Positions 48,357-52,209 of a DNA stretch of 64,000 nt are shown here, piece by piece. The translations under genes were made by a program, and so were the position numbers. Source of the stretch: Actinomycetota bacterium (GTDB lineage Bacteria; Actinomycetota; Acidimicrobiia; Acidimicrobiales; Iamiaceae); NCBI GenBank assembly GCA_019639075.1, contig JAHBSO010000003.1, positions 1 through 64,000 of the forward strand. The letters run 5' to 3'. The notes under the pieces are model-generated. The model ran no database searches. It saw nothing but the letters and a program-made list of their open reading frames with translations, and was not told the origin of the DNA. Position 1 is the first letter of the stretch. Each line of letters starts with the position of its first letter.

Positions 48357-48386
48357 AGTGTACGGGCGCCGCCCGCGAACCCTCAA
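48357..48386 (-). promoter_or_regulatory. Promoter of the rib operon
   Basis: TTGAGG (48386-48381) and TACACT (48362-48357) are separated by 18 nt, a good -35/-10 pair. Transcription would start about 20 nt before the riboswitch. The -35 box covers the rsmB stop codon. Confidence 0.65.
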
Positions 48387-49558
48387 AGCGTGGCGGCACC
48401 GGCGACGTCCGGACGGCCCGTCCGATCCGGGGACCGCCACGCGAAGATCGCCATGCCGTCGGTCCCGGCCACCTGCGGGAGCAACAGCGCCCCGGTGCCC
48501 CACGGCCGCCACGGACCGTCGGGAGTCGGCAGCGGCCGCCACCCCTCGTGGCCCTCGGCGAAGCGGTCCGCCACCCCGGTCGTCTCGGCCCGGGTGAGGG
48601 TGCACACCGAGTAGACGAGCACGCCGCCCGGTGCCACCAGGTCGGCGGCCGACGCCAGCAGGCGGTCCTGGAGCGCGGCGAGGCGCGCTGGCGCGGCCTC
48701 GTCGATGCGCCACCGGGCATCGGGGCGGCGCCGCAGCGATCCGAGACCGGAGCACGGCGCGTCCACCAGCACCCGGTCGAAGGTGCCCCGCCCGAACGGG
48801 GCCGCGGTGCCGTCGGCCACCACGACGGGCAGGGCGTCGGCGGCGAGCCCGACCCGCTCCCGGTTCGACGCCACCAGCCCGGCCCGAGCCGGACGGGCAT
48901 CGGCGGCCACGACGCCCGCGCCGGAGGCGGCGAGGGCGGTGGCCTTGCCGCCGGGTGCTGCGCACTGGTCGAGCACCCGCTCGCCCGCCCGGGCACCCAC
49001 GGCGGCGGCCACCTGCTGGGACGCCTCGTCCTGGACGTAGCCGTCGGCCCGTTCGGTGACCGACGCGGCACCGTTCATCGACACCAGCGCCGCCTCGGCA
49101 TCGTCGCGCCCCAGGTCGTCGACCATCGCATCGACGATCCAGTCCGGGTAGCTCAGGCGGACCGCGTCGCTCGGCCAGGCATCCTCCGCGGTGGCCACCT
49201 TGCGGAGGACCGCGTTGACCAGGCCCTTCACCCGTCGCGGGACGGCGTCGACGGTCGCGGAGACCGCGGCGTGCGCCGGGGTGCCGAGCATGCGCAGCTG
49301 GTAGGTGCCGAGGCGCAGCGCGGCGCGCACCTCGGGGTCGAGATCGCCGTGCGCGAACCGGTCGACGAACCAGTCGCAGGCCCGTCGGGAGCGGGTGGTG
49401 CCGTAGACGAGCTGGGTGACGAACGCACGGTCGCGCTCGCCGAGTCCGCTTCGGGCCAGCACCTTGGGCAGGACGAGGTTGGCGTACGCGCCGTCGCGGT
49501 CGATGCGGACGAGCGCGTCGATCGCCACCCGGCGCGGGTCGGGCGGGGCGGCGCTCAC
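48383..49558 (-). CDS. rsmB: 16S rRNA (cytosine-967-C5)-methyltransferase
   Basis: A 391-residue enzyme. The N-terminal NusB-like RNA-binding domain (AIDALVRIDRDGAYANLVLPK) precedes the catalytic domain. That domain has CAAPGGKATAL for SAM binding, DAPCSGLGSLRRRPD with one catalytic cysteine and YSVCTLTRAET with the other. The GTG at 49558 overlaps the fmt stop as GTGA (49555-49558). Third in def-fmt-rsmB. No rpe gene follows, unlike in many actinobacteria. Confidence 0.96.
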   Translation of the reverse strand: MSAAPPDPRRVAIDALVRIDRDGAYANLVLPKVLARSGLGERDRAFVTQLVYGTTRSRRACDWFVDRFAHGDLDPEVRAALRLGTYQLRMLGTPAHAAVSATVDAVPRRVKGLVNAVLRKVATAEDAWPSDAVRLSYPDWIVDAMVDDLGRDDAEAALVSMNGAASVTERADGYVQDEASQQVAAAVGARAGERVLDQCAAPGGKATALAASGAGVVAADARPARAGLVASNRERVGLAADALPVVVADGTAAPFGRGTFDRVLVDAPCSGLGSLRRRPDARWRIDEAAPARLAALQDRLLASAADLVAPGGVLVYSVCTLTRAETTGVADRFAEGHEGWRPLPTPDGPWRPWGTGALLLPQVAGTDGMAIFAWRSPDRTGRPDVAGAATL

Positions 49559-50484
49559 CTCGCCCCCGGACCGAGACGTTCACCGTCGGTCGGACGGGCG
49601 CCGTTCACCCACGCGGCGAACGGCTGCTCGGCCTTCCCCTCGGGCTGCACCACCACCAACCGGAGCCCACCCTCGCCACAGGCGACCACGTCGCCGTGGA
49701 GCTCGCCCGGAGAGCCCGACCCCACGTCGCCGGCCCGTGCGTCGACCACCTTCAGGCGCTTGTCGCGGAAGGTGGTCCACGCCCCGCCGACCCGCACGAC
49801 GCGGTCGAGGTCGACGGCGGAGCGGTCCCAGTCCAGCTCGAGGTCGGCGGCGCGGATCTTCTCCGCGTAGACGGGTGGACCGAGCTGGGGTTCGGGGTCG
49901 CGCAGCCCGGCCCGCAACGTGTCGACCAGCAGCGACGCGCCGACGACGGTCAGCTGCTCGCCCAACGCCGCAGCCGTGCTCCCACGCCGGACGGTCAGCT
50001 CGCGCCGGGCGTAGACGGCCCCGGTGTCGAGGCCCTCCTCGACCGCCATCACGCAGACGCCGGTGCGCTCGTCGCCGGCCATGATCGCCCGCTCGACCGG
50101 GGCCGCCCCGCGCCACCGGGGCAGGAGGGAGAAGTGGAGGTTCACCATCGGCAGCCGTTCGAGCAGCGGACGGCGGAGGATCCGCCCGAACGCCACCACG
50201 ACCCCCAGGTCGGCATCGACCCCGGCCGCGTCGTCGGGGTCGTGGGTCACCGGGATGCCTCGACGCATGGCCTCGATCCGCACCGGCGTGGGCGTCGGTT
50301 CGGCCCGCCTCCCGCGGCGCTTGTCGGCCCCGGTGACGACCAGGGCGACGTCGAAGCCGGCGTCGACCAGCGCGGCGAGCGGGGGCACGGCCATCGTCGG
50401 GGTACCGAAGTACACGAGACGGGTCGGGTTGACCGGTGGCGTGGGCAACGGCGCCCCGCCGGGTGCCTGATCGCTCGGGCTCAT
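49555..50484 (-). CDS. fmt: Methionyl-tRNA formyltransferase
   Basis: A 309-residue enzyme that formylates initiator Met-tRNA with 10-formyl-tetrahydrofolate. RLVYFGTPTMAVPPL opens the Rossmann domain after a flexible 20-residue extension. The catalytic Asn and His are in VNLHFSLLPRWRGAAPVERA, followed by DTGAVYARRE. The C-terminal OB-like tRNA-binding domain is complete. The ATG at 50484 is 7 nt after the def stop. Coupling with def pairs addition and removal of the formyl group. Confidence 0.97.
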   Translation of the reverse strand: MSPSDQAPGGAPLPTPPVNPTRLVYFGTPTMAVPPLAALVDAGFDVALVVTGADKRRGRRAEPTPTPVRIEAMRRGIPVTHDPDDAAGVDADLGVVVAFGRILRRPLLERLPMVNLHFSLLPRWRGAAPVERAIMAGDERTGVCVMAVEEGLDTGAVYARRELTVRRGSTAAALGEQLTVVGASLLVDTLRAGLRDPEPQLGPPVYAEKIRAADLELDWDRSAVDLDRVVRVGGAWTTFRDKRLKVVDARAGDVGSGSPGELHGDVVACGEGGLRLVVVQPEGKAEQPFAAWVNGARPTDGERLGPGAR

Positions 50485-50491
50485 CGGGACG

Positions 50492-51031
50492 TCAGCGCAG
50501 CGAGAGCCGGCGCGACGGCTCCTTCGACTCGGCCTGCCGGCCGAGGAGCAGCTCGCGGACCTGGCGCTTGGCCTCCTTGGCCTGGTCCTCGTCGAGGTGC
50601 TCGACCAGCAGCACGCCGTTGAGGTGGTCGAGCTCGTGCTGGAACATGCGGCCCTCGAGCTCGGAGGCCTCGTAGGAGACGTCGTTGCCGTCGAGGTCGA
50701 CACCGACGACGTGGACGTGGTTGGGCCGGACGATCTCCCACGACAGGCCGGGCACCGACAGGCAGCCCTCCTCGAAGACCCACTCGCCGTCGGACTCGAC
50801 GATGCGGGGGTTGACGATCGCGTGCGGACCGGTGCCGTCGTTGATGTCCCACACGAACAGCTGCTTCTGGATGCCGATCTGCGGGGCGGCGAGGCCGACG
50901 CCGGGGGCCGCGTACATCGTGTCGACCATGTCGTCGACCAGCTTCACGAGCTTGCCGTCGATGTCGGTGACCTCGGCCGCCTCCTGCTTGAGGACGGGGT
51001 CACCGATCACGCGGATCTCGTAGGAGGCCAT
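50492..51031 (-). CDS. def: Peptide deformylase
   Basis: A 179-residue metalloenzyme that removes the formyl group from new proteins. All three motifs are intact: GVGLAAPQIG, EGCLSVPG and HELDHLNG (metal cysteine and histidines). Length is normal for the type 1 group. The ATG at 51031 has TAGCCT exactly 7 nt upstream (leaderless). First gene of def-fmt-rsmB. Confidence 0.98.
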   Translation of the reverse strand: MASYEIRVIGDPVLKQEAAEVTDIDGKLVKLVDDMVDTMYAAPGVGLAAPQIGIQKQLFVWDINDGTGPHAIVNPRIVESDGEWVFEEGCLSVPGLSWEIVRPNHVHVVGVDLDGNDVSYEASELEGRMFQHELDHLNGVLLVEHLDEDQAKEAKRQVRELLLGRQAESKEPSRRLSLR

Positions 51032-51038
51032 GGGGGCC

Positions 51039-51048
51039 AGGCTACCGT
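51039..51048. promoter_or_regulatory. Overlapping divergent -10 boxes of def and the RsmC-like gene (both leaderless)
   Basis: AGGCTACCGT reads TAGCCT on the minus strand (51044-51039) and TACCGT on the plus strand (51043-51048). The boxes share the central TA. Each is followed by exactly 7 nt and a start codon (ATG 51031, GTG 51056), so only 24 bp separate two divergent genes. Confidence 0.65.
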
Positions 51049-51055
51049 CGGCACG

Positions 51056-51682
51056 GTGCCGTCCCCGTCCGAGCCGTCGCACTACTTCGACCCGGCTCCG
51101 TCGGTCGGTTCGCGCCGTCGCACGGTCGACCTTGTCCTGCCGGAGGGTCGGCTCGTCACGCTGATCACCGACCAGGGCGTCTTCTCCGGCGACCACGTCG
51201 ACCCGGGCACCCGCCTGCTGATCGCCACCGCCCCACCCCTCGACGACGCCCGCACGCTGGTCGACGTGGGCTGCGGCTACGGCCCGATCGCGATCACCAT
51301 GGCGCTGCGGGCGGCCGAGGACGCCACCGTGTGGGCGGTCGACGTCAACGAGCGGGCCCGCGTCCTCTGCGCGGAGAACGCCGAGGCCAACGGGGTCGGG
51401 GCCCGGGTGCGCGTCGTCGCCCCCGAGGAGGTGCCCGACGACCTCGTGGCCGACGTGGTCTGGTCGAACCCGCCGATCCGCATCGGCAAACCGGCGCTGC
51501 ACGCCCTGCTGACCGGGTGGTTCGACCGGCTCGCACCCGACGGCACGGCGGTGCTCGTCGTGCAGCGGAACCTCGGGGCCGACTCGCTGGCCCGCTGGAT
51601 CGGGGAGGGCGGGCGGCCGGTCGTGCGCCTCGCCTCGCGGGCCGGGTACCGCGTCCTGACCGTCGGCGGGGGCGACCCGTGA
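51056..51682 (+). CDS. RsmC/RlmG-like class I methyltransferase
   Basis: A 208-residue protein equal to the catalytic half of RsmC (guanine-N2 methylase of 16S rRNA). SAM binding is DVGCGYGPIAI with VDVNERA. The catalytic motif is SNPPIRIGKPALH, the NPPfh pattern of base-amino methylases. The N-terminal FSGDHVDPGTRLL segment matches this short actinobacterial type. The target RNA is not certain. GTG 51056 is fixed by the promoter. The 3' end overlaps the next gene as GTGA (51679-51682). Confidence 0.85.
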   Translation: MPSPSEPSHYFDPAPSVGSRRRTVDLVLPEGRLVTLITDQGVFSGDHVDPGTRLLIATAPPLDDARTLVDVGCGYGPIAITMALRAAEDATVWAVDVNERARVLCAENAEANGVGARVRVVAPEEVPDDLVADVVWSNPPIRIGKPALHALLTGWFDRLAPDGTAVLVVQRNLGADSLARWIGEGGRPVVRLASRAGYRVLTVGGGDP

Positions 51683-52209
51683 GCCGGTCGCTCGGCAGCA
51701 CCGACCTGAAGCGGCTCCACCGCGAGTGGCGGCGCCGGGCCGAGGGGCGGGTCGCCGTCCTGCTCGACTCGGTCGCCACCCCCTACAACGTGGGTGCGAT
51801 CCTGCGCACCGCGGCCGCGCTGCGGGTCGACGACGTCTTCGTCTGCGGGCAGACGGCCGACGAGCACGCCTCGGGAACGCAGAAGACCGCACTCGGGTCG
51901 CAGCGGTTCGTGACGGTCCGCCGCTTCGACGCCCCTGCCGATGCCGCCGTCGCGGTCCGCGACGCCGGCTACCGGCTGGTCGCGGTGGAGCTGGCGGAGG
52001 GCGCGGTCCCGATCCACGAGGTCGACCTGACCGGCGACGTGTGCCTCGGGGTCGGCCACGAGGACCGGGGCCTGAGCGCCGCGATCCTCGACCGGGCCGA
52101 TCAGGTGGCCTTCATCCCCCAGCTCGGTCGCATCGGGTCGCTCAACGTCGCCACCGCCGCCTCCATCGCGCTCTACGAGGCGAGGCGCCAGGGTTGGCCC
52201 GCCCCCTGA
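51679..52209 (+). CDS. TrmH-family tRNA/rRNA 2'-O-methyltransferase
   Basis: A 176-residue SPOUT enzyme without an added substrate domain. Motif 1 is DSVATPYNVGAILRTAAA, motif 2 GVGHEDRGLS, and motif 3 IPQLGRIGSLNVATAASIALYE. It resembles the group that methylates tRNA Gm18. The GTG at 51679 overlaps the stop of the RsmC-like gene, so the two RNA methylases are coupled. The stop codon falls within a decayed family E repeat. Confidence 0.85.
   Translation: MSRSLGSTDLKRLHREWRRRAEGRVAVLLDSVATPYNVGAILRTAAALRVDDVFVCGQTADEHASGTQKTALGSQRFVTVRRFDAPADAAVAVRDAGYRLVAVELAEGAVPIHEVDLTGDVCLGVGHEDRGLSAAILDRADQVAFIPQLGRIGSLNVATAASIALYEARRQGWPAP

Follow-up and report, generated by a model that had tools for sequence, protein, structure and literature searches.

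We found that the 24 bp between two divergent housekeeping genes, one for peptide deformylase (def) and one for a class I SAM methyltransferase, very likely constitute a bidirectional housekeeping-sigma promoter from which both mRNAs would be leaderless. The genes lie in a window of 64,000 nucleotides from an uncultured actinobacterium. The site is explained by two known phenomena in combination; it is real and conserved, and neither unique nor the most extreme of its kind. Since relatives conserve the layout and other gene pairs of the order show it as well, we regard the site as a clear and compact case of an already known type of bidirectional promoter.

The sequence at 51029-51058 is CATGGGGGCCAGGCTACCGTCGGCACGGTG, which is composed, in order, of CAT, GGGGGCC, AGGCTACCGT, CGGCACG, and GTG. 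The central element, AGGCTACCGT (51039-51048), contains TAGCCT (minus strand) and TACCGT (plus strand), and each hexamer is separated from its own start codon by 7 nt. The start codons stand back to back, with 24 bp between the ATG of def and the GTG of the methyltransferase gene. In these respects the first-pass annotation was exact: the coordinates, the hexamers, the shared TA, the 7-nt spacers, and the 24-bp gap were all reproduced by sequence readout. Its description of the promoter as symmetrical is correct for the central TA and the outer A/T, and incorrect for the 24 bp as a whole, which do not form a palindrome. No Shine-Dalgarno motif was read in either 7-nt spacer, and the use of ATG and GTG as the starts fits leaderless actinobacterial genes lacking that motif. 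The position of TANNNT, approximately 12 bp before the start codon, together with the genome-wide positional enrichment described below, is also that of leaderless genes. Furthermore, an overlapping, shared -10 can be read on both strands, and both sequence and conservation agree with it. A consensus scan found no sigma-70 consensus with a -35, which is the expected outcome for TANNNT promoters, and no Rfam family matched within 50800-51300.

Table 1 Features of the def/methyltransferase site and of the flanking genes.
Feature	Position	Strand	Remark
RsmB/F-type 16S rRNA methyltransferase with NusB domain	48383..49558	-	probably within def operon
fmt, methionyl-tRNA formyltransferase	49555..50415	-	probably within def operon
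def, peptide deformylase, 179 aa (P0001)	50492..51031	-	Pfam Pep_deformylase 4.6e-49
def start codon ATG	51029..51031	-	predicted +1 at 51031; N-terminus conserved in relatives
-10 element TAGCCT, def operon (putative)	51039..51044	-	7-nt spacer to ATG; ranks 6th among leaderless -10 words
TA step common to both -10 elements	51043..51044	.	sequence; shared in 25/47 pairs
-10 element TACCGT, methyltransferase operon (putative)	51043..51048	+	7-nt spacer to GTG; ranks 2nd among leaderless -10 words
Methyltransferase start codon GTG	51056..51058	+	predicted +1 at 51056; GTG/ATG aligned in genus
Class I SAM methyltransferase, MTS domain, 208 aa (P0002)	51056..51682	+	Pfam MTS 1.7e-26
SpoU/TrmH-type RNA methyltransferase	51679..52209	+	4-bp overlap with preceding MTS methyltransferase gene

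The genes on both sides appear to form operons, whose functions are in translation initiation or RNA modification. P0002 scored 31.2 bits against the NCBIfam equivalog for RsmC (16S rRNA guanine-1207 methyltransferase), for which the cut-off is 295. Because this score is far under the cut-off, "RsmC-like", the label given at first reading, is appropriate for a protein related to RsmC, and "RsmC" is not.

The position of TANNNT relative to start codons was surveyed in 1.25 Mb of the same genome, sampled in stretches, in which 1109 genes were called with a codon-usage script of our own that also chose the starts. TANNNT was observed 6-8 nt before the start codon in 151 of the 830 genes that were not internal to operons, namely in 78 of 362 genes with a divergent upstream neighbour and in 73 of 468 same-strand genes with a gap of at least 10 bp. 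At offsets of 12-44 nt the mean was approximately 1.5 per offset in each of these two groups, and 7 of 252 operon-internal genes carried the motif at 6-8 nt. Among the 151 leaderless-type -10 words, TAGGGT occurred 23 times, TACCGT 17 times (second), and TAGCCT 8 times (sixth). As TACCGT and TAGCCT are among the commonest words, neither half of the site is unusual among the leaderless-type promoter words of this organism. It could be argued that a TA-containing decamer simply arose by chance in a short gap, because the information content of TANNNT is low. This explanation can practically be dismissed: the background of TANNNT, measured in 460 kb of the same genome, was 2.7e-4 per base per strand, and the site was conserved in 46 further gene pairs, which refutes it. 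A chance origin is thus ruled out by the concentration of TANNNT 6-8 nt before start codons together with the conservation in relatives.

That conservation was examined at 47 distinct loci carrying the divergent def/methyltransferase pair, which were collected by a protein search of 61 related genomes and a genome-contig search with def. TANNNT at leaderless spacing was present on both sides in 40 of the 47 pairs; the TA was shared exactly as in the window in 25 of these 40 and split in the remaining 15. The def pair of Aquihabitans sp. G128, a cultured relative (L009/L032), shows the 7/7 layout as well. The split pairs carried similar words, each 6-9 nt from its own start, at a T-to-T distance that ranged from 1 to 82 bp. 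Since the spacing to the own start stayed within these 6-9 nt despite the variable separation, the two halves behave as independent promoters and not as one operator. A tree built from both proteins in concatenation showed all three layout labels to be clustered (11 changes vs 18.8 in shuffles); it was rooted at the midpoint for drawing only, which gives no order of the shared and split states.

All 12 members of the window genus had the shared state. Each column of AGGCTACCGTCG was identical in 11-12 of these 12 members, and three columns of the def-side spacer were identical in only 5-6 of them. Such a footprint might instead indicate that AGGCTACCGTCG is a transcription factor operator for both genes and that the TANNNT matches are incidental, as the ten bases of the core, together with the CG after them, hardly vary within the genus, which is more than TANNNT demands. 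We consider this very unlikely, given that the 15 split pairs keep each half in place before its own start codon and that both words rank among the commonest leaderless -10 words genome-wide.

The two directions were not equally constant. Every one of the 47 pairs had TANNNT at the def start, and in 7 of them the def-side element alone was kept, 4 of the 7 belonging to one clade that contains Ilumatobacter; hence, the signal that maintains the plus side is not the same in every pair. These counts would fit a situation in which the def direction alone is a real promoter and the plus element is a relic, with the methyltransferase gene transcribed from within def or at a low level. However, the window genus and 40 of the 47 pairs keep the plus element at near-constant spacing, even when the halves are split, and we therefore regard a promoter for def alone as unlikely.

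Several individual loci showed other arrangements. At four loci of the clade including Ilumatobacter (L019, L061, L062, and L094), the def -10 is kept, the methyltransferase gene has no leaderless-spaced TANNNT, and 19-21 bp separate the def start from the nearest methyltransferase start. In the def/methyltransferase gap of L047, TACCGT and 7 nt are followed by the ATG of a five-codon ORF whose TGA overlaps the methyltransferase ATG; this may be a leaderless upstream ORF with coupled translation. In that of L054, TACCGT and 7 nt are followed by a CTG, in frame just upstream of a conserved SHYF motif. This CTG is a possible start, although mycobacterial leaderless starts reportedly require ATG or GTG.

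The site had initially been described as an extreme case, a view which could not be maintained. In the same genome, a YchJ-like/flavodoxin-like divergent pair (G000:C27:38569-38598; L205) has the identical 24-bp layout with 7/7 spacers and a shared TA. A second pair, FlK-like thioesterase and TldD-family genes (G000:C1:125315-125335; L136:5315-5336), diverges across 20 bp with TACGATA, where the -10 elements of both strands overlap almost fully, more tightly than at def. Nine relatives, moreover, hold 16-27 matches each, as described below. Elsewhere in the genome, at G000:C1:299206-299208, two long divergent genes of about 650 and 675 codons have starts overlapping in CATG; these starts may be miscalled.

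When the 7/7 layout was searched with the pattern CAY-N7-ANNNTANNNT-N7-RTG, 1-2 matches per genome were obtained in 11 of the 12 genus members, mostly at def. G024, G025, G026, and G029 gave 4-6 matches each; in these four, the reversed pattern gave none, and a control with AT for TA gave 0, 0, 5, and 0, respectively. Because of its 5 control matches, G026 is not considered enriched. Approximately 16-17 of 20 sites fetched from outside the def locus lay between two plausible divergent genes, the criteria being the length of the ORFs, GC by codon position, and, for several, N-termini that could be recognised; the Pfam check among the 20 was made for the own-genome pair only.

When spacers of 6-8 nt were allowed, each of nine genomes (G021, G024, G027, G029, G035, G036, G040, G047, and G051) held 16-27 sites and exceeded both the reversed and the AT controls (p<0.01, uncorrected for 61 genomes). 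The 61 genomes pooled gave 741 matches to the TA pattern vs 884 to the AT control, so that the claim of enrichment is restricted to those nine. The genome of the window was not above its controls (3 TA, 3 AT, and 2 reversed matches). In G047, 12 of 13 sampled TA sites lay between two divergent, coding-looking ORFs; none of 6 AT control sites beside this sample was convincing, and L227 was the only arguable one. It is about as likely as not that several families of the order use shared-TA, doubly leaderless bidirectional promoters as a standard means of pairing genes. Such a device would serve approximately 15-25 divergent pairs per genome, with one element of 23-27 bp as the whole intergenic region, so that neither UTRs nor operators would fit, and selected pairs would keep it across families.

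Two other pairs were seen by eye in two different families each: a small gene next to one whose N-terminus is PafA-like (L204 and L214), and a pair including a small zinc-finger-like gene (L199 and L220). Both carry a shared-TA leaderless-type promoter.

As for the mechanism at def, RNA polymerase would bind ANNNTANNNT in either orientation, with the central TA forming the first two bases of both -10 elements. If transcription starts 8 bases beyond each hexamer, +1 would fall at 51031 on the minus strand and at 51056 on the plus strand, at the first codon or within 1-2 bases of it. Both mRNAs are accordingly predicted, very probably, to start at the first codon. With initiation at or near that codon, both would be leaderless, and their translation would begin at an AUG or GUG at the 5' end. 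In one direction the promoter would feed def, fmt, and the rsmB/F gene, and in the other the MTS methyltransferase and the SpoU methylase. The observed basis for this scheme is the sequence, the spacing, the genome-wide leaderless-type signal, the conservation of each half, and the independence of the halves. The genome-wide signal, the 47-pair comparison, and the genus footprint support the two overlapping divergent -10 elements with a common TA that had been proposed from the sequence; the same three lines, with the lack of Shine-Dalgarno motifs, support the accompanying prediction that both genes are leaderless. We infer activity in both directions and the exact starts, and co-expression of the two operons would be the benefit.

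If so, the site is a minimal case that is conserved across the order: a single TA step drives two genes, and neither side is predicted to have any untranslated sequence. The shared and split versions in relatives offer a natural experiment on whether fusion of the -10 elements couples or antagonises the genes. Furthermore, the pattern and its spacing can be used to list candidate bidirectional leaderless promoters in uncultured Actinobacteria.

Acidimicrobiia and mycobacteria belong to the same phylum, and leaderless translation from both starts is plausible when the mycobacterial rules are carried over by analogy. Our literature search found no TSS map for Acidimicrobiia; nor did it yield an account of a shared -10 serving two leaderless genes, subscription papers being mostly outside the search. 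Warman, Wade, Grainger and colleagues described promoters with a pseudo-symmetrical -10 that RNA polymerase can use in both orientations (PMC12825309, PMC10268837). The def site resembles their promoters in that -10 elements on opposite strands overlap and divergent starts, here predicted, lie on either side. In their promoters the commonest separation of the TSSs is 18 bp, 10 and 23 bp are also common, and small variation is allowed (PMC12825309). By our own calculation, a TA shared at the 5' ends of the hexamers gives 23 bp with 6-nt spacers, which corresponds to their 23-bp class; the predicted separation here is 25 bp, with 7-nt spacers and +1 at the first base of each start codon, against published classes of 10, 18, and 23. 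Their commonest class, 18 bp, differs from the def site in having -7 and -11 reciprocally paired. Also unlike in their promoters, both predicted starts here are start codons, so that neither mRNA would have a 5' UTR. Opposing polymerases are unable to bind simultaneously at bidirectional promoters; five tested E. coli examples were too weak for competition at basal activity, and activating one direction brought competition about (PMC12825309). Steric exclusion between the two directions is thus physically expected at def, and its effect on output may be nil at basal activity.

Leaderless genes led by TANNNT are described in three reports on Actinobacteria (Zheng 2011, PMC3160421; Cortes 2013, PMC3898074; Shell 2015, PMC4633059). 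The two genes here share with them a TANNNT approximately 12 bp, counted from the first T, before the start, the absence of a Shine-Dalgarno motif, and an ATG or GTG start, and differ in being divergent neighbours with a single TA step between them. For leaderless translation in mycobacteria, a 5'-terminal ATG or GTG is both required and enough (PMC4633059). For M. tuberculosis, PMC3898074 gives a TANNNT -10 motif without a conserved -35 and calls closely juxtaposed divergent promoters common. It includes prpD / Rv1129c, adjacent divergent genes that both have mapped leaderless starts, and in its passages on the pair no shared TA is claimed. This pair resembles the def pair as divergent neighbours with leaderless starts, which are mapped in M. 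tuberculosis and predicted here.
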